DNA of 64,000 nucleotides from Allorhodopirellula solitaria (lineage in GTDB: Bacteria; Planctomycetota; Planctomycetia; Pirellulales; Pirellulaceae): assembly GCF_007859855.1 (NCBI RefSeq), contig NZ_SJPK01000004.1, positions 248,001-312,000 of the forward strand, given 5' to 3'. The first letter of the stretch is position 1. Each line of letters begins with the position of its first letter. The notes under the pieces were generated by a model. It did not search any database and was not told the origin of the DNA. It saw only the letters and a list, made by a program, of their open reading frames with translations. This document shows positions 11,542 through 46,590 of the stretch, piece by piece. The translations under genes and the position numbers were made by a program.

Positions 11542-11628
11542 CGGATGGGGTGGGATTCGAACCCACGGTAGAGTCACCCCTACGCTAGTTTTCAAGACTA
11601 GAGCCTTCGTCCACTCGGCCACCCATCC
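11542..11628 (-). tRNA. tRNA-Ser (anticodon UGA)
   Basis: Read on the minus strand the 87 bases fold as a class II tRNA. The acceptor stem is GGATGGG with CCCATCC. The anticodon stem is CTAGT/ACTAG around loop CTTGAAA, giving anticodon TGA. A long variable arm (GTAG...CTAC) and the T-arm GTGGG-TTCGAAT-CCCAC follow. The long variable arm plus the UGA anticodon identify a serine tRNA reading UCA and UCG codons. The discriminator base is G and the 3' CCA is not encoded. It stands alone between the 8634 gene and glgC. Confidence 0.97.
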
Positions 11629-35427: not shown

Positions 35428-36459
35428 ATGAGTGTCGCCACTGCTGCTCCAACTTCATTCTCGCCTGCAGGCACCTTCGACGCGATGGCATCCCAAGTGC
35501 TCGAGGGGCGGCCGATCTCGCGTGAACAGGCGCTGTCGATCGTCGAGGCGTCCGATCTCGATCTGCCTGCGATCCTGGCCGCTGGATACCGCATCCGCCA
35601 CCACTACTTTGCCAACTCGGTCCAGCTCTACTTTCTGATGAACGCCAAGAGCGGATTGTGCCCAGAGGATTGCCATTATTGCAGTCAGTCGAAGGTCTCC
35701 GAGGCCCCTGTGCCCAAGTACAACATCCTCAAGCGGGATGACCTGATGGCCGCCGCCGGTGTGGCTGCCGAGCGGGGGGCGAAGACCTATTGTCTCGTCA
35801 TCAGCGCACGAGGTCCTAACGAGCGTGAGATGGTTGCGGTCGAAACGATCGTGCCGGAGATCAAGCAAAAGTACGACCTGGATATCTGTGCGTGCCTGGG
35901 GTTGTTGACTGCTGATCAGGCCCAGCGACTCAAGGCCTGCGGGGTCGACCGAGTCAACCACAACCTAAATTCGAGCGAGATGCATTACGCGAAAATTTGC
36001 ACCACGCACACCTACGCTGACCGCGTTCAAACGCTTCGCAACGTCCGTGACGCCGGGATGGAGATGTGCAGCGGCGGGATCATCGGTATGGGCGAATCGC
36101 GAGCGGATATCGTCTCGATGGCCTTTGACCTCGCTGAGTTGGAAGTGGAATCGATTCCCGTCAATATTCTCAATGCGATCGATGGCACACCGCTCGAAGG
36201 CACCGACTCACTGTCACCCCAAGACGCTCTGAAGGCGCTGGCGATGTTCCGCTTCGTCGCGCCCGACAAAGAACTGCGTATCGCCGGCGGGCGGGAACTG
36301 CACCTGCGTTCGCTCCAGCCGATGGGATTGTACGTCGCCAATAGCTTGTTCGTTGGCGATTACTTGACGACCCAGGGTCAGGCTCCCCAAGCCGACTATG
36401 ACATGATCACCGACCTCGGATTTGAAATCACCGGGTCGTGTGAAGAAGTCAGCGGATGA
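35428..36459 (+). CDS. bioB: Biotin synthase BioB
   Basis: 343 residues with the radical-SAM motif CPEDCHYC (C-x3-C-x2-C) at about residues 77-84. Biotin synthase segments follow: SGLCPEDCHYCSQSK, DICACLGLLTADQAQRLKACGVDRVNHNLN, GMEMCSGGIIGMGES, NILNAIDGTPLEG and GGRELHLRSLQPMGLY with the conserved arginine that binds the [2Fe-2S] cluster. It inserts sulfur into dethiobiotin, the last step of biotin synthesis. Other bio genes are not in the window. It ends 2 bases before the 77-bp repeat array starts. Confidence 0.95.
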   Translation: MSVATAAPTSFSPAGTFDAMASQVLEGRPISREQALSIVEASDLDLPAILAAGYRIRHHYFANSVQLYFLMNAKSGLCPEDCHYCSQSKVSEAPVPKYNILKRDDLMAAAGVAAERGAKTYCLVISARGPNEREMVAVETIVPEIKQKYDLDICACLGLLTADQAQRLKACGVDRVNHNLNSSEMHYAKICTTHTYADRVQTLRNVRDAGMEMCSGGIIGMGESRADIVSMAFDLAELEVESIPVNILNAIDGTPLEGTDSLSPQDALKALAMFRFVAPDKELRIAGGRELHLRSLQPMGLYVANSLFVGDYLTTQGQAPQADYDMITDLGFEITGSCEEVSG

Positions 36460-40261: not shown

Positions 40262-40885
40262 TTACTCTCGGACGATCTCGACCAATTCGATAGCGGGCTG
40301 GTCGTTGCAGCGGATCAATGCGGTGCGGCCGTAGATGACTTCGTTGGGGGCGGTACCCAGGAAGGAAGCAAGAGTTTGATTGGGGGTGATCCTCCAGAGT
40401 CGGTCGAGCTCGACCGAGCGGAGGACGTTGTGGTTGATCAGCGCGCGGCCCAGTGGGATGCCCTCGCCAGCAATCTCCATCCAGACTTCTTGGCCGATCG
40501 TCGATGGGTCGAGCCGCACGAGGCCGTACTGGACGATCTTCCTCGCCGCGTGGGTCACGAGGGTAATCTCGCGAGAGTAGGAAGCAGTCTGCTCGGCAAT
40601 CAAACGGCGGCCTTCTCCTTGCAGGGCGGGGTCGTCTTGCCAGATCGTCCGACCGTCGCGTAGATGATTGCAACTACGATGCACCACCACATCGACTTTC
40701 TCCCCGTGAAACGCTTCGACAGTCACAGTCATGTGGCTGTTGTGATCGAGCAGTTGATCAAAGGGGGGCGGGCACATGGCGACTTCTTCGAATGTCGCGA
40801 GGGTATCGGAATCGCTATAGAACTGCGAGATCAGCGATTCGATGTCAATTTGGCGGCGCAGCGGCGGATCGGATGGGGTGAGCAT
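40262..40885 (-). CDS. Chorismate-lyase-like (DUF98/UbiC-fold) protein
   Basis: 207 residues. The core resembles the chorismate lyase fold: an early MTVTVEAFHGEKVDVVV strand, then SREITLVTHAARKIVQYGLVRLD and GIPLGRALINHNVLRSVELDRLWRI. In the UbiC/DUF98 family this order is strand pair, 'arginine-x-glutamate' strand and the GxxLG loop. UbiC releases 4-hydroxybenzoate from chorismate; DUF98 relatives have mixed or unknown activities. Key residues cannot be assigned with certainty from sequence alone. It is the last gene of the minus-strand terpenoid-like block, 27 bases after the DUF116-prenyl synthase gene. If it does make an aromatic acid, a prenylated aromatic product would follow. Confidence 0.5.
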   Translation of the reverse strand: MLTPSDPPLRRQIDIESLISQFYSDSDTLATFEEVAMCPPPFDQLLDHNSHMTVTVEAFHGEKVDVVVHRSCNHLRDGRTIWQDDPALQGEGRRLIAEQTASYSREITLVTHAARKIVQYGLVRLDPSTIGQEVWMEIAGEGIPLGRALINHNVLRSVELDRLWRITPNQTLASFLGTAPNEVIYGRTALIRCNDQPAIELVEIVRE

Positions 40886-40912
40886 GAGGCGGTCCGGGTG
40901 AGGTGGGGCTTG

Positions 40913-42877
40913 TCAGGCAACCGGCATCGCTGCTGACAAGGTGACCGTGGCAGGGGTGGGCATCTCAGGACGTTCGAGCACCGTGTCGACAAGAAAGTAG
41001 AATAGCCGACGAAGCGGTTCGCTCTCCAACTCATCGGCAACCTGCTCAGCACGGGCTTGGTGCTTATCCACCAATTGCAGCGACAAGTCAAACACACCGG
41101 CTTTGCGGTACAGCGACTCGGCCGTCCGCAATCGCTCGCGAACGCTCATGTCACATTCATCCGTGGCGAGACCCAACAGTGTTTCCTGGTCCGCTTCATC
41201 GAGATGCTGTAGAGCCAACGCCCACAGCAACGTCGGCCGGCCCGCGATCACGTCCGCTCCGGCGGTGAGTTTATTGGAGTCATCTCCGATCCAGTCATTG
41301 AGGTCATTGATGATCTGGAAGGCGACACCAAGATTGCGTGAAAACCGGCGGATGGGTTCGACGAGCTCAGAGGCGTCTCCGGCAATCCGCACGCCACTGT
41401 AGAGAGCGGCCTCGAACGCAGGCGATGTTTTCAACGCATAGATTTTCAGCGCATCGATTGGTTGCAGTCGTCGGTCTTTGGCATCTCGCCACAACAACTC
41501 AGCTCCCTGGCCCTCGGACAAACGGACGTGGGCGGCGGCGAGGGAATCGAGCAAGTCCACCCGTGTCGCGGGGTCCACTTGGTCCCCGACCATGTCGCGG
41601 CTGAGCAAGCGATACCCCAGGCCGATCAGGTAATCACCGACGTTGATCGCCGATGCGATCCCGAAGCGATGATGGACGGCGGGTTGGCCGTACCGGTAGG
41701 CGTCGTCATCCTCGATGTCATCGTGCACGAGGCTGGCTTTGTGAAACGTCTCAATACTCAGTGCCGCCCGCCGCACAGCATCGGGTACTTCACTTGCTTT
41801 AATTTCACCATCACTGCAAGTCGCTTCGCCCCCCGTGGCCGCGTCGTAGGCGGCCAAGGTGATGAACGGACGCGAGTGCTTGCCGCCCCGCGCCAAGAAG
41901 TCATAAGCAATGGCCTCGGTCGCGGCGATCGGATCGACACCTGCGAGCTGGCCGGGAGTGATCGCGTCGGCGGCGTGATCCGGCGCCGAACCCTGAAGTC
42001 GCTGCACGGCACCATCCACGCCCGCATCCTGTGAGATCGACGCAGGACGGTCGGTGGCGTGATCCTTGGGATCTGCCAACCCCAATCCACGCAGCGGTGG
42101 TGCGAGTCGATGCAGCGTATCGCGAGAAAACAACTGGCCAGCCGCTCGCATCAAATGCACGTAACTGCGGGTCTTAGCTTTGGCGGGTACGTAAGGCGTG
42201 CGGATCATCTCCTCGACCCAGGGCTCGTCGACCTTCGTATTGCGGCAATCGCTCGATAGCAACGGCACAGCCATGCAGGGTATGCCCGCCAAGAGAACTT
42301 TATCGATCGCTTTCTCGAGCACGTTCAAGCAGGCCACGCCGACAACGGCATCGACGTACCCACCCACGATGATCTTCATCACCACCGGCGAGCCTTCGGC
42401 GACAAGCACCCGGTAACCCATCTCCTCGGCAATGCTGCGAAAGTCCGCGATGCTGCAGGCACCACACTGTTTGCAGTTCATGCCGAACTGGTCGTAATCG
42501 GCGGGGCAGCCCTCGGCGTGCTTCAGGCAGTGCGGCAATAGAAACAGCCGTCGCTCAGGCGGTACTGAGGAAAGTTGGTGTCGCCAGAACGCGCTGCTAA
42601 TGTTGACCATCGTCCAGCCCAAAAAGCCCTCCGGCAGATCGGCTTCGACGAGCATCTGGCGAGCGACCTGCTCCATCTCATCCTTGGTCAAAGGATGATC
42701 ACGATCGAGCCGATCGGCGACCTCGCGACAGCGATCGCGCAAGCTCTCCCGCATCGCGAGGGTATCGGGAACGTCCTTCAATTGGCTCGTATTGCGGCGC
42801 TGACGACGCGAAGAATTGCTGCGAGACGGATCGTTTCGCTGCGCATCGCTGCGAGTGGTGGGATGTCCAGTCGACAA
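40913..42877 (-). CDS. Fusion of DUF116 domain and polyprenyl diphosphate synthase
   Basis: About 654 residues from TTG 42877; GTG 42940 and ATG 42754 are other possible starts. The N-terminal half has a DUF116 domain (about residues 60-225): FLLPHCLKHAEGCPADYD, CKQCGACSI and a run of conserved cysteines suggesting a metal or Fe-S site. The C-terminal half (about 310-640) is a trans-isoprenyl diphosphate synthase: GGKHSRPFITLAAY, first aspartate-rich motif LVHDDIEDDD and second motif FQIINDLNDWIGDD, where the usual DDxxD reads NDLND. These enzymes chain isopentenyl units to C15-C50 diphosphates. The fusion joins an unknown redox-like domain to prenyl synthesis. It starts 10 bases after the class II cyclase gene ends. 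Confidence 0.82.
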   Translation of the reverse strand: MSTGHPTTRSDAQRNDPSRSNSSRRQRRNTSQLKDVPDTLAMRESLRDRCREVADRLDRDHPLTKDEMEQVARQMLVEADLPEGFLGWTMVNISSAFWRHQLSSVPPERRLFLLPHCLKHAEGCPADYDQFGMNCKQCGACSIADFRSIAEEMGYRVLVAEGSPVVMKIIVGGYVDAVVGVACLNVLEKAIDKVLLAGIPCMAVPLLSSDCRNTKVDEPWVEEMIRTPYVPAKAKTRSYVHLMRAAGQLFSRDTLHRLAPPLRGLGLADPKDHATDRPASISQDAGVDGAVQRLQGSAPDHAADAITPGQLAGVDPIAATEAIAYDFLARGGKHSRPFITLAAYDAATGGEATCSDGEIKASEVPDAVRRAALSIETFHKASLVHDDIEDDDAYRYGQPAVHHRFGIASAINVGDYLIGLGYRLLSRDMVGDQVDPATRVDLLDSLAAAHVRLSEGQGAELLWRDAKDRRLQPIDALKIYALKTSPAFEAALYSGVRIAGDASELVEPIRRFSRNLGVAFQIINDLNDWIGDDSNKLTAGADVIAGRPTLLWALALQHLDEADQETLLGLATDECDMSVRERLRTAESLYRKAGVFDLSLQLVDKHQARAEQVADELESEPLRRLFYFLVDTVLERPEMPTPATVTLSAAMPVA

Positions 42878-42887
42878 AATGATTACC

Positions 42888-44951
42888 CTAGGGAGTGTCG
42901 TCGTGGTCGGCACCGCTAACAAATGGCAACGTGGCAACACGGCCGAGCGCAGCGGTGGTGAAAATCAGGGGGTACAGGCGTTCGTGATACCACAATTTGG
43001 CAAAATAAAAACCGATCGGCCACGCGATTCGATGCTGCTCAGCGGCAACGGCTCGAACCAGCCATTCGGAGCCTGCCAGTATAGCGTCTCGGGTCGACGC
43101 AGTCAGGGAAGGGGATTGAGACGCAAATCCGCTGCTTTCTGAGAATTCGGGCCCGCTGATGGAACCCCACAAACTGGCTAAAGACTCGATCGCCAGAGCA
43201 GTTTCCTCGACCGTACTGGTGGTGACACCCCCCCTCTCGCCGCCCCCATTGGGCGGCCCGCCCGAAGAGCGCAGTCCGCCGGCATGGTGCAGCCGGGCGA
43301 CCGAGTCGCCCCCGCCCCAGCCACCGTCAGCATTCTGGCTACCGAGCAGGTAAGCGATCCCCTGGCTAATGCAATCCACCCCCAGTTCCGCGGGCGCGTC
43401 AACGAGCACCTTGGCGGTTCCGTAGACCGGATTGTCCTCGGCCGGCCGATCTTGGTTGCCAAACCAGAGCGGCAACCAAGACCCATCGGGCTGCTGAGCG
43501 GCACGCAGAAATCTCAATCCCTTCCGCGTGGCCGTCTCGCTGCGGGGGCAGGTCGGCATGGTCGCCATGGCGCGAAGCGCATGAGCGGTTAGATCTGTGC
43601 TGCTGCGATCAAACGGCAGCTTGCCCCACCCGCGACAGAAAGTTGGCCAGCCGCCGTCGCGGTTCTGGAGACCGAGCAACCACTCCTTGGCGTCCGCACA
43701 GGCCGCATCAATGCGCGCCAATCGCTGCGCGCCGGCAACATCTCGAAGTTTGCCAAGTGCCACGATCGCACCGGGAGTGTCGTCGGCATCAGGGACCGCT
43801 CCCGATAGGTCGGTCCACCCCCAGCCGCCGGGATCCGCGCCCGTGAAGGGATGGCGGCGAGTGTGTTGGCAGGACAGCAGCCAATCGATCATCGCGTCGC
43901 TCGACCAATCCCGCTGGTCGGCCGGATCACTGGCGAGTGCGGCCACCGACAGCGAGGTCACCCAGGTGGCGAGGTTGGTGTCGATTGGCCAGCTGCCCTC
44001 CTCGTCGACCGATTCTTGCAGAAAACGCAGGCCTTGCTCAATGATTCGGTCGCGGGCCCCGTTGGGCTGTGGTGACGTGCTCAGCGTATCGACGAGAGAC
44101 ATCACCACGAAGGCAGTCAGTGGCGTTGCTTCCAAGTAGCCGCCACTCCCGGGCTGCATCTTCTCGAGTACTTTCAGCGATGGCTCGATCGCCGATCGCC
44201 GTACCCAGGACCAAGGGGGAAGGCAGCCGGAACGACAGAACTTGGCTTGCCCAATCGCAACGAGGGCTGGCACCGCGTAACTGACCACGGGCATCCCCAA
44301 AAATCGGTACATCGATTGGGGGAACACCGCCGCTTCAAAGGGGAGAGCCGCCACATCGGACCACGGCACCAAACCGGCGACTGCGAGATTGTTCAGGATC
44401 GGCACAACAAACGTCTTGTCCGTTCCATATCGCTCGCGGAGGGCTGGAATGCCGCCCGCCGTTTCAAGATAGGCTCGTAGCGACTCCTGCGAGGCCGACA
44501 ACCGCGGATCCGCCGCCAAGTCTTCCAACAGGTCGGCTGCCAGTGTCCGAGCCGCCAGCACCAAGTAGCTCGTCGCGATGTTGGAATGGCTCAAATCGGT
44601 ATCACCGAAACCTCCGTCAGCATTCTGTTGGCCGAGCAACCATTCGCAACCACGCCGAACCAGCATCAGATAGCGATCGTTGTCTTGCGGCGCAGTATCG
44701 AGCGACGGCGAAATGTCGCCCTCAGGCTCCGCCCGCGGTGCGACACGATCGCTACCGCAAGGTTCCCCCGACGTCGCGGCCCCCCTACTACGGCAGGCAA
44801 CACTCAATGCACTGATCGCCGTTGCCGTGCTCAAGGCGGATGCGGATAGCCGGCCCGTCCAATGAGGGGCGCCTCCTCGATCAGCGATCAATTCGCGTCG
44901 CAGTTGGTCAAGAGTTTGCCGCACACGTGCCTGAAATTCGGTACGGTCCAT
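42888..44951 (-). CDS. Class II terpene cyclase (squalene-hopene-cyclase-like)
   Basis: 687 residues. The acid-catalysis motif of class II cyclases is present as VPDADDTPGAI (DADDT at 388-392, matching DxDDT). QW-type repeats line the chain: LLGQQNADGGFGD, LQNRDGGWPTFCRGWG, AAQQPDGSWLPLWFGNQ and GSQNADGGWGGGDS. These define the alpha-alpha barrel of squalene/hopene cyclases. Such enzymes protonate a terminal double bond and fold a linear polyprene into rings. The first 90 residues are atypical, with a small hydrophobic stretch (SASALSTATAISALSVAC) that may attach it to the membrane. Known SHC sequences are about 630-720 residues. It overlaps the regulator stop (TGATG), so translation is coupled. 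Product unknown. Confidence 0.8.
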   Translation of the reverse strand: MDRTEFQARVRQTLDQLRRELIADRGGAPHWTGRLSASALSTATAISALSVACRSRGAATSGEPCGSDRVAPRAEPEGDISPSLDTAPQDNDRYLMLVRRGCEWLLGQQNADGGFGDTDLSHSNIATSYLVLAARTLAADLLEDLAADPRLSASQESLRAYLETAGGIPALRERYGTDKTFVVPILNNLAVAGLVPWSDVAALPFEAAVFPQSMYRFLGMPVVSYAVPALVAIGQAKFCRSGCLPPWSWVRRSAIEPSLKVLEKMQPGSGGYLEATPLTAFVVMSLVDTLSTSPQPNGARDRIIEQGLRFLQESVDEEGSWPIDTNLATWVTSLSVAALASDPADQRDWSSDAMIDWLLSCQHTRRHPFTGADPGGWGWTDLSGAVPDADDTPGAIVALGKLRDVAGAQRLARIDAACADAKEWLLGLQNRDGGWPTFCRGWGKLPFDRSSTDLTAHALRAMATMPTCPRSETATRKGLRFLRAAQQPDGSWLPLWFGNQDRPAEDNPVYGTAKVLVDAPAELGVDCISQGIAYLLGSQNADGGWGGGDSVARLHHAGGLRSSGGPPNGGGERGGVTTSTVEETALAIESLASLWGSISGPEFSESSGFASQSPSLTASTRDAILAGSEWLVRAVAAEQHRIAWPIGFYFAKLWYHERLYPLIFTTAALGRVATLPFVSGADHDDTP

Positions 44952-46282
44952 CACGGTGTTTCACTTTCGCTCGACTCCAAGCGTCCGAGAGCCTCATCGG
45001 CCCAGGGGCTTCCGGGGGCGAGTTCGAGGAACCGCCGCCAGTGCGGCTCAGCTTCGCTCGGTCGATCGAGCTGATCGAGCAGCCGCGCTAGGTCGTACTG
45101 CACGTCGGCGTAGTCATCGTGCAAGGCCAGGGTTCCCTGATACGCGGCTACGGCGAGGTCGAGTTGGTTTGTCTCGGCCAACACACCGGCGAGGCTCGAA
45201 CGCGCCTCGACGAAATCCGGGTCAACTTCAATCGCAGCATAGTATCGCTCTCGCGCCGCCGTTATTTCTCCCATGCGGTAGAGCAGTTCACCAATCTGAA
45301 AGTGCCACTCGGCGCGGCTACCATCCCGAGCCAGCAACGCGTGATAGCAATCGACAGCGTACTCGAGGTCACCATCGTCTTCGGCCGTGTATGCCGACAT
45401 CAACAACTCATCGTCACCCTCGTCATGGATTCGCGACGAATCCGCTGGCGGGAAAGCCAGCGAGTCGTCATCGGCAGTTCCTGGAAAACGAATCGAAACC
45501 GTCGGATCTGCATCGATGTGGTGCGAATCAGCGTCGTCGGTGGTCTCGCCGAGATGATCAAAATCGAAACGCAACTGCCCTCCCGGCTCGATCAATCCCT
45601 CCCCCTGCCGCAGCAGCACATGCTTGCCCTCGACCAAGATTGAGAGTTGATCCAAAGGTCGGCGGAGATCGGGAACGATCTCAATCAACTGCAGCAACCG
45701 CCGCTCGATCGCCTCGGGGCTGGCACCCGAGGCCACCCAAGCTGCCAATCGCCTCGCGGTGGCCACCTCTTGAAAATCGAAATAGGGCAACCGGTGTAGC
45801 GTGCGGACCGGTTTGATCAAGCCACGCCGGTGCCATCGCCGGATCACTCGCACCGAAACGCCGAGCAGATGAGCCAACATCGCGGGCGTATGAAGTTTGC
45901 GGATCGAGTGCTCGCTATCGACCAGACCGAGTCGCTGCCAGAGTTCGGTTTCATGCAAAATCTGCGATTGGCTGGGCAGTCCCCGGCGACGAGTCGCTGC
46001 CTCGATCAATTCCGCTTCGGCTAGCGGTGACTCTTCGGCGCCGATCACGATCCAGTCCACGGCAGCGGAATCCGATTCGACCACGACCGCTCCATAAGAA
46101 CGCAGCAGGTTGGTGGCTTCGCGGCGACTCATGCCGCCGAGCCGCCCCGCGATGGTCACCCGCCGCCCACGAATGGCCGCCTCCCCGGAAAGCTCGTCCG
46201 CTGGCAACACATCCTCCTCACCAGCGAGCGTTACATCGCCCGGCTCATCGAGGTCATCGGTATCGATCTCAAAATCATCCAT
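44951..46282 (-). CDS. BRCT-MerR-TPR regulatory protein
   Basis: 443 residues from ATG 46282 (the frame extends to 46336, without support). Order: acidic leader; BRCT-like domain (about 36-115: IRGRRVTIAGRLGGMSRREATNLL, GAVVVESDSAAVDWIVIG); MerR-type winged helix (about 120-200: HTPAMLAHLLGVSVRVIRRWHRRGLI with YFDFQEVATARRLAAWV); a variable middle; and TPR repeats at the C-terminus (about 320-440: EYAVDCYHALLARDGSRAEWHFQIGELLYRMGE onward). MerR domains bind promoters and BRCT and TPR domains bind proteins, so this is probably a regulator. It heads the terpenoid-like block, suggesting it controls it. This order of domains occurs in planctomycete proteins, with no known target. Confidence 0.75.
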   Translation of the reverse strand: MDDFEIDTDDLDEPGDVTLAGEEDVLPADELSGEAAIRGRRVTIAGRLGGMSRREATNLLRSYGAVVVESDSAAVDWIVIGAEESPLAEAELIEAATRRRGLPSQSQILHETELWQRLGLVDSEHSIRKLHTPAMLAHLLGVSVRVIRRWHRRGLIKPVRTLHRLPYFDFQEVATARRLAAWVASGASPEAIERRLLQLIEIVPDLRRPLDQLSILVEGKHVLLRQGEGLIEPGGQLRFDFDHLGETTDDADSHHIDADPTVSIRFPGTADDDSLAFPPADSSRIHDEGDDELLMSAYTAEDDGDLEYAVDCYHALLARDGSRAEWHFQIGELLYRMGEITAARERYYAAIEVDPDFVEARSSLAGVLAETNQLDLAVAAYQGTLALHDDYADVQYDLARLLDQLDRPSEAEPHWRRFLELAPGSPWADEALGRLESSESETP

Positions 46283-46590
46283 GGTCGGTATGTTAGCAAA
46301 AAACCCGTGATGGGGATGCCACACCGATGCAAGCACGGCAGTATCTCACCGATCAGACAACGTCATCCGTCCGCTCCGCCAGTCACTCCTATCCGATCGA
46401 CGATCCTGGCACGCGAGCAAGACCCGAGTGACGGTGAAAGCAAAAACCCATCATTCAATTAACTCGAACAAAGAAACGAAATTATACAATGGAACCGTCG
46501 ATTCGTCTCGGTTAGAGTTCTCCAGTCACGTTCAATGGCGGGCCCCCGAGCCCACTGCATTTTTTCCGCTTGATTCATGAGTCGTCCTGG
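46283..46590. other. Divergent regulatory gap, regulator vs MFS operon
   Basis: 308 bases between two divergent operons: the terpenoid-like block on the minus strand and the acid-sugar block on the plus strand. No gene is supportable. The AT-rich part around 46440-46495 holds the best promoter candidate (see 46459-46488). A shared regulator-binding region is possible, but no repeated operator was seen. Confidence 0.4.
46459..46488 (+). promoter_or_regulatory. Candidate promoter of the MFS/acid-sugar operon
   Basis: TTAACT (46459-46464), 18-base spacer, TATACA (46483-46488), in the most AT-rich part of the gap. It reads rightward toward the MFS gene with a leader of about 95 bases. Moderate match to a sigma-70 promoter; there is no experimental support. 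Confidence 0.3.

Follow-up and report, generated by a model that had tools for sequence, protein, structure and literature searches.

Among the described systems closest to the locus considered here are two: the pairs of a bacterial ent-copalyl diphosphate synthase (ent-CPS, PDB 5bp8) and a trans-prenyl synthase, a polyprenyl diphosphate synthase (PPS) with a class II cyclase being the classic pair of diterpene clusters, and the hopanoid clusters with their squalene-hopene cyclase (SHC, NCBIfam TIGR01507). We describe a class II (protonation-type) cyclase gene, CYC, and the PPS gene linked to it in a 64 kb window of contig C4 in a 6.8-Mb planctomycete genome (coded G000 here; "the window" is this whole stretch). 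CYC shares with SHC a toroid that matches both SHC domains, the DxDDT acid motif and a DVTAH-type histidine, but it forms a clade of its own, is linked to a prenyl synthase and is accompanied by a radical S-adenosylmethionine (SAM) enzyme that does not score as HpnH. With the ent-CPS pairs it shares the trans-prenyl synthase beside a class II cyclase, but the sequence relation is weak and conserved partners with Fe-S, radical SAM and lipoyl-carrier character are added. We propose that CYC belongs to a co-inherited module, of seven genes or more, that probably builds and cyclises an isoprenoid other than a hopanoid; the window holds its prenyl-synthase/cyclase core, and the remaining module genes are scattered in G000. 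The PPS is fused to a DUF116 domain, and the same fusion has been reported in Pirellula staleyi (Psta_0175), where the authors propose electron transfer for DUF116; the account of the fusion in section 3.6 of that paper names no cyclase, module or terpenoid role (PMC5898192).

CYC (42888..44951, minus strand) matches SQHop_cyclase_C with 98.8 bits (cut-off 26.1). Its DADDT motif (residues 389-393) lies at 43776..43790 and His458 at 43581..43583, and several QxxDGxW-type repeats can be recognised by eye, in agreement with the cyclase with DADDT and QW repeats read in the initial annotation. Ten bases separate its TAG from the TTG start (42877) of the DUF116-PPS fusion (40913..42877, minus strand), which had also been predicted and in which both domains are matched in Pfam (polyprenyl_synt, PF00348, 145.8 bits; DUF116 136.7 bits); the start is uncertain, as a GTG at 42940, which would overlap CYC, is also possible. 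The DUF116 stretch in Pfam spans 42203..42643, the first Asp-rich motif of the synthase (DDIED, preceded by small A-S residues) 41708..41722, and the second (NDLND) 41294..41308. After a further 27 bases comes a UbiC-like gene on the same strand (40262..40885), recognised through its predicted fold.

The surroundings of this cassette were compared at the best 80 of at least 579 CYC matches, which we call the named loci (e.g. Rhodopirellula rubra and Aporhodopirellula aestuarii). The first 20 of these (6 to 21.5 kb each) were probed with 16 window genes (tblastn, E 1e-8): CYC and the fusion are present at 20/20 and the UbiC-like gene at 19/20, the one locus without it (L115) stopping 1.9 kb past the CYC frame, and the other 13 genes were found at none of the 20 in this search. 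That the cassette is kept amid fully changed tested surroundings is strong evidence of selection. CYC relatives (E < 1e-35) occur in 65 of 294 genomes of the phylum, and a second set of 60 other loci was drawn from 60 of the 64 carriers besides G000 (G010, G036, G243 and G279 being left out). Among loci with at least 4 kb of flank on both sides (49/60 other, 46/80 named), the fusion and CYC share a strand and are no more than 6 kb apart at 44/49 and 45/46, respectively, and DUF116 and PPS share a single frame at 50/60 other and 68/80 named loci. The linkage of fusion and CYC exceeds chance, and its tightness bears out the earlier suggestion of a pathway in which a class II cyclase is paired with a dedicated prenyl synthase.

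The fourth minus-strand gene of the block, at 44951..46336, encodes a MerR-TPR protein, a putative regulator (MerR_1 38.6 bits, TPR_16 44 bits), whose TGA (44953-44951) shares one base with the CYC ATG (44951); a GTG at 44954, one codon before this ATG, is an alternative CYC start. The initial annotation had described a BRCT-MerR-TPR regulator at the head of a block of four co-directional genes. The four open reading frames, their strand and their spacing are confirmed, as are MerR and TPR, but the BRCT domain reaches only 12.9 bits, below its Pfam cut-off of 21.3, and the block is not conserved as a unit. The regulator is among the 13 genes missing from the first 20 named loci, and searches of all 80 named loci (phmmer, E 1e-10) and of the 60 other planctomycete loci did not find it. 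For this reason we judge it to be a neighbour in G000 only, with no part in the module, and a four-gene operon with the MerR-TPR regulator was rejected.

The gene inventory taken from the window was also incomplete, as five further co-inherited genes are not visible there. Neighbour clustering at the 60 other loci, with family scans of single members, gave as recurrent CYC neighbours a 4Fe-4S dicluster ferredoxin protein (FD; 41/60 loci), a Prenyltrans toroid of about 310 amino acids (aa) here called TOR2 (PF00432; 35/60), a GcvH-like carrier (31/60), a radical SAM enzyme (28/60) and a CobW-type GTPase (22/60). All six partners, the fusion included, stand beside CYC at 20/60 loci. In G000, profile matches place FD at C9:213608-214549, TOR2 at C12:97284-98165, the radical SAM enzyme at C6:77511-78701, the GcvH-like carrier at C3:360232-360699 and the GTPase at C2:104949-106034. 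A cysteine desulfurase occurs at 15 CYC loci (185 loci searched), always on the CYC strand; it is found in 11 of the 20 complete clusters and also at L249, a cluster without CYC. One member (L082) matches PF00266, and the desulfurase identity comes from reading the sequence. We note that at nine or more loci FD is encoded by two genes, a small one for the N-terminal part, which begins Cys-rich, and another for the dicluster ferredoxin (e.g. L071:15451-15999); the small part in L071 has no Pfam match.

Co-inheritance was profiled within Planctomycetota in 67 of the 294 genomes, chosen mostly for completeness: 32 of the 65 with CYC and 35 of the rest. Thresholds were fixed after two separated score groups had appeared, so that a strong match means at least 160 bits for FD (other group at most 37.4), 250 for TOR2 (29.6), 150 for the GcvH-like carrier (100.8), 350 for the GTPase (76.6) and 600 for the radical SAM enzyme (222.9). 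In counts that ignore kinship, FD and TOR2 are each present in 32/32 genomes with CYC versus 0/35 without it, the GTPase and the radical SAM enzyme each in 31/32 versus 0/35, and the GcvH-like carrier in 30/32 versus 0/35. Frames of 580 aa or more that include DUF116 follow the same pattern (32/32 versus 0/35), and 14 of the 35 genomes lacking CYC have DUF116 only in frames of 151-310 aa. Because the sequences of the seed alignments were taken from loci with CYC, matches at linked loci are partly circular; this does not hold for genomes with an unlinked partner (G000, G274, G024, G137, G291, G283 and others). Three within-family contrasts are the chief safeguard against an effect of common descent, the set being present in G187 and missing in G009 of the same genus (family f12), present in G220 and missing in G077 and G198 (f58), and present in G183 and missing in G030 (f32). 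CYC, the fusion, TOR2, FD, the GcvH-like carrier, the GTPase and the radical SAM enzyme are inherited together, and we regard it as almost certain that they constitute one module.

The cyclase is set apart from SHC. All three aspartates of DADDT (D389, D391 and D392) are conserved in 61/61 aligned CYC family sequences, and the motif aligns with DVDDT of SHC in a profile alignment; His458, kept in 60/60, lies opposite the histidine of DVTAH in SHC. In an unrooted tree of 46 sequences, 21 CYC family rows form one side of a branch with 100/99 support, with four annotated SHCs and 15 SHC-like cyclases of planctomycetes opposite them; the tree included no CPS-type cyclase, six rows fell in no group, and the position of two rows on long branches (Halorussus and one Streptomyces protein) is unsure. 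Five of the 15 SHC-like cyclases come from genomes that also bear CYC (G107, G056, G235, G171 and G130). CYC scores 68.7 bits against the NCBIfam SHC model (cut-off 431.1) and is also far beneath the cut-offs for oxidosqualene cyclase and tetrahymanol synthase. It is the single strong SQHop_cyclase_C match in G000 (82.9 bits, with four others at 22.8-27.8). Its score with ent-CPS (32.8 bits, E 2.7e-7) is far under that with SHC.

No match to SQS_PSY, the family making squalene or phytoene, was found in 5 of the 32 genomes with CYC (G284, G200, G057, G025 and G183, which are 96, 99, 99, 90 and 90% complete, respectively), and 14 of the 35 genomes without CYC have one. Because of these five genomes, squalene seems unlikely as the general substrate of CYC, and we think it likely that CYC acts on a polyprenyl diphosphate instead. 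A plain hopanoid locus was rejected as the principal explanation on the SHC cut-off, the tree and the missing SQS_PSY matches. The initial annotation had reached the same view from the lack of hpnCDE genes nearby, which holds for the window, but an SQS_PSY pair sits on another contig of G000 (C10), and the five genomes without a match make the stronger case against squalene; a firm grouping of CYC with true hopanoid SHCs, which that annotation named as a refuting outcome, is not seen in the tree. CYC relatives are also found on plasmids (59 records), and the 40 matches listed have 26-31% identity over at most half of the protein, several being annotated as SHC.

The motifs of the synthase are in keeping with an active enzyme whose product is longer than C15. 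The first Asp-rich motif (DDxxD) is kept in 51/51 fusion sequences, with A and S at positions -5 and -4 before it in 51/51; small residues at this place allow chains beyond C15 under the chain-length rule. The second motif, (N/D)DxxD, has N at its first position in 29 sequences and D in 23, and its two later aspartates are kept in 52/52. Seven cysteines of DUF116 (C78, C85, C96, C99, C102, C144 and C172 in the numbering of the aligned fragment) are each conserved in 51/51 or 52/52 sequences. A predicted model of this domain has a mean predicted local distance difference test score (pLDDT) of 79.1, and the fold was abandoned as a clue to function, since no PDB match was obtained at E <= 0.001.

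TOR2 has the Rab geranylgeranyltransferase-II (GGTase-II) beta subunit (6o60) as its best solved relative (73.6 bits), and the two share the Prenyltrans toroid. It differs from protein prenyltransferase beta subunits in that neither a Cys nor a His that could bind zinc is conserved (none at 93% or above in 35 sequences). Tyrosines of TOR2 align with the Cys and His among the Asp, Cys and His positions that we take to be the zinc ligands of those enzymes, in local alignments that map one segment to several repeats. A D-x-E-Y-T-x-Y stretch is nearly invariant (D, E and both Y in 35/35, T in 33/35), and to our eye its DxEYT helix pattern resembles the D-x-D-D-T of cyclases. In G000, TOR2 is oriented divergently from two genes, one NifU/SufU-like and one for a SufS-like cysteine desulfurase, as read from their sequences (C12, L195:6264-9379). 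A link of TOR2 with such a pair was dropped as a candidate; it is absent at 12 other TOR2 loci, where the sole exception is a 43-bit desulfurase match about 5 kb off in L219.

The GcvH-like carrier keeps the lipoylation lysine in 31/31 sequences and has no conserved Cys, and the one member scanned (L073) scores 64.5 bits against the GcvH equivalog (cut-off 115.85). It resembles LbpA of the Hdr-like sulfur oxidation pathway in being a GcvH-like carrier with an invariant lysine and a gene near those of Fe-S proteins; LbpA is described as having, besides the lysine, two cysteines absent from GcvH, some archaeal ones excepted (PMC6067878). Because these two cysteines, as given there, are not conserved, we do not file the module proteins as LbpA. 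Hdr genes were not recognised among the module neighbours, in which no profile search was aimed at them. The radical SAM enzyme carries extra SPASM-like cysteines and, judged by its score, is not the adenosylhopane synthase HpnH, the one member scanned (L039) reaching 42.7 bits against TIGR03470 (cut-off 225.05). Distant homologues of this enzyme occur in genomes without CYC, with 222.9 bits on contig C14 of G032 and 162-178 bits in five genomes of family f44.

The UbiC-like protein of the window has no Pfam or NCBIfam match at E <= 1, and its kinship is visible from the fold rather than from family profiles. An AlphaFold2 model built with 34 sequences (mean pLDDT 94.2) has as best Foldseek match the DUF98 protein AF1396 (2nwi; E 2.0e-7, template modelling (TM) score to the query 0.56), followed by Escherichia coli chorismate lyase UbiC (1g81; E 6.6e-6, TM score 0.50), with UTRA-type effector domains of GntR regulators close behind. 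The protein is thus predicted to have the DUF98/chorismate-lyase-type fold. Profile comparison with E. coli UbiC gives E 9.9e-5 and a probability of 58; in this alignment Arg105 (52/53) is opposite the arginine of UbiC YWLRE, and Glu203 (52/52) falls beyond the alignment end, this Arg and Glu being what we take to be catalytic residues of UbiC. Likeness to UbiC/DUF98 thus extends to fold, a PLGR motif and the aligned arginine, but the window protein has no Pfam match and is not a core member of the module; a Pfam scan of the 34 sequences finds the Rv2949c-like chorismate-lyase family in three (best E 0.052).

The UbiC-like gene adjoins the fusion at 52/80 named loci, mostly of Pirellulaceae, and at 5/60 others. 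In a search of 47 genomes it has a match in 27 of the 33 with CYC (20 at 150 bits or more; none in the other six) and in 4 of the 14 without CYC (one at 150 bits or more), and because of this distribution we consider it accessory. The aromatic branch foreseen in the initial annotation is consistent with the chorismate-lyase-type fold and the place beside the fusion, but it would be a side branch at most, 6/33 genomes with CYC having no match to the gene. Where the UbiC-like gene stands away from CYC, its most recurrent neighbour, reverse-strand shadows aside, is a gene for a HemN-like radical SAM protein, about 1 kb distant at 5/13 loci (L252, L253, L257, L259 and L263); the L253 protein matches PF04055 with 86.4 bits, with HemN_C below its cut-off.

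The overall account that we favour, with somewhat better than even confidence, is that the PPS makes a chain, CYC cyclises it and Fe-S and radical chemistry modifies the product. The PPS would supply a polyprenyl diphosphate, all-trans and with a probable length of C20 or more, the far end of which CYC would protonate through the DxDD aspartate and cyclise without oxygen, and TOR2 could be a second cyclase or a partner of CYC. The ring compound may then be modified by the radical SAM enzyme, which FD and the cysteine-rich DUF116 domain would serve, and we give even chances to this enzyme tailoring the terpenoid itself. Sulfur from the desulfurase would pass to the Fe-S proteins or the product, perhaps by way of the lipoyl carrier, although sulfur in the product is doubtful. 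The GTPase may be a metal chaperone and the UbiC-like protein a lineage-specific extra. The role of DUF116 remains a guess, because its model has no PDB match at the E value given above.

Several points weigh against this account, the lack of a structural match for DUF116 among them. At 40/60 loci the cluster is incomplete, and in G000 five partners are unlinked, on five other contigs. G284 has no strong match to the GcvH-like carrier, the GTPase or the radical SAM enzyme, and G167 has no GcvH-like protein. Product and activity are predictions, and two linked processes could be present, such as a terpenoid pathway next to one that matures Fe-S or lipoyl groups. The best solved relative of CYC is SHC (125.7 bits), SQS_PSY is present in 27/32 genomes with CYC, and in these genomes, G000 among them, squalene may be what CYC cyclises. 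The same facts and the SQS_PSY pair on C10 favour the explanation that CYC is a divergent SHC-type cyclase acting on squalene from HpnCDE encoded elsewhere, with the linked genes modifying a hopanoid-like triterpene; a 2019 paper calls relatives of Gemmata potentially hopanoid producers (PMC6606645). We consider this unlikely on account of the five genomes without SQS_PSY, the separation of CYC from the SHCs and its co-occurrence with SHC-like cyclases in five genomes, the low score with the SHC model, and a radical SAM enzyme that is not HpnH. If the product were a hopanoid-type triterpene, the module would be less new.

Three further explanations start from other parts of the module. The UbiC-like enzyme might make 4-hydroxybenzoate that is joined to the cyclised chain, which would suit its predicted fold, the arginine opposite that of YWLRE and its place beside the fusion at 19/20 of the first named loci; but the gene has no match in some genomes with CYC and has one in some without, its fold is common to the UTRA ligand-binding domains, so that it may bind rather than cleave, and no UbiA-type prenyltransferase was recognised among the recurrent neighbours, in which no profile search aimed at UbiA was made. 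A prenylated aromatic product is thus improbable. We give similarly little weight to a labdane-like secondary metabolite locus with a geranylgeranyl diphosphate synthase and a copalyl-diphosphate-synthase-like cyclase, in which the other genes are co-inherited for unrelated reasons: the pairing of a PPS with a class II cyclase and the A-S residues before the first Asp-rich motif would fit, but near-perfect co-inheritance across a phylum is out of character for a secondary metabolite cluster, the score with ent-CPS is far under that with SHC, and the recurrent neighbours included no recognisable class I terpene synthase, again with no profile search aimed at one. Least credible to us is a lipoyl or Fe-S maturation system with accessory isoprenoid enzymes, for example for prenyl anchoring of the GcvH-like carrier. 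The invariant lysine of that carrier, the ferredoxin, the radical SAM enzyme, the DUF116 cysteines, the desulfurase and the match of TOR2 to the Rab geranylgeranyltransferase beta subunit all speak for such a system, but TOR2 lacks the conserved Cys and His for a zinc site and a DxDD cyclase would have no evident role in it.

Each enzyme belongs to a known superfamily, and what is new is the module as a pathway rather than its folds. To our knowledge this combination matches no described pathway, and no title describing the module appeared among the literature matches listed, which cover open-licence PMC papers, so that a subscription paper could be missed. The widespread, near-perfect co-inheritance of at least seven genes suggests an overlooked basic lipid or cofactor, in a phylum known for unusual membranes. 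A bolder version, which we offer tentatively and hold to be rather doubtful as a whole, is a dedicated oxygen-independent pathway of Planctomycetota to a new class of polycyclic isoprenoid, a membrane lipid or cofactor, with a DUF116-coupled synthase, two toroid cyclases, and a radical SAM enzyme, FD and lipoyl carrier that add desulfurase sulfur or C-C bonds; if this were true, many planctomycete genes filed as SHCs would report on that compound and not on hopanoids. Cyclase-domain matches by themselves do not reveal the hopanoid potential of planctomycetes, a point that matters where hopanoids serve as biomarkers. In planctomycetes amenable to genetics, the genes of the module are precise targets for deletion.

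At 35428-36459 on the plus strand of the window, about 4 kb from the cassette, lies a gene whose sequence suggests biotin synthase, a radical SAM enzyme. It was not found at the first 20 named loci (tblastn, E 1e-8), and we therefore take its proximity as chance. An Rfam scan at gathering scores shows no known RNA feature near the four-gene block, and one tRNA-Ser is present in the window, at 11542-11628.

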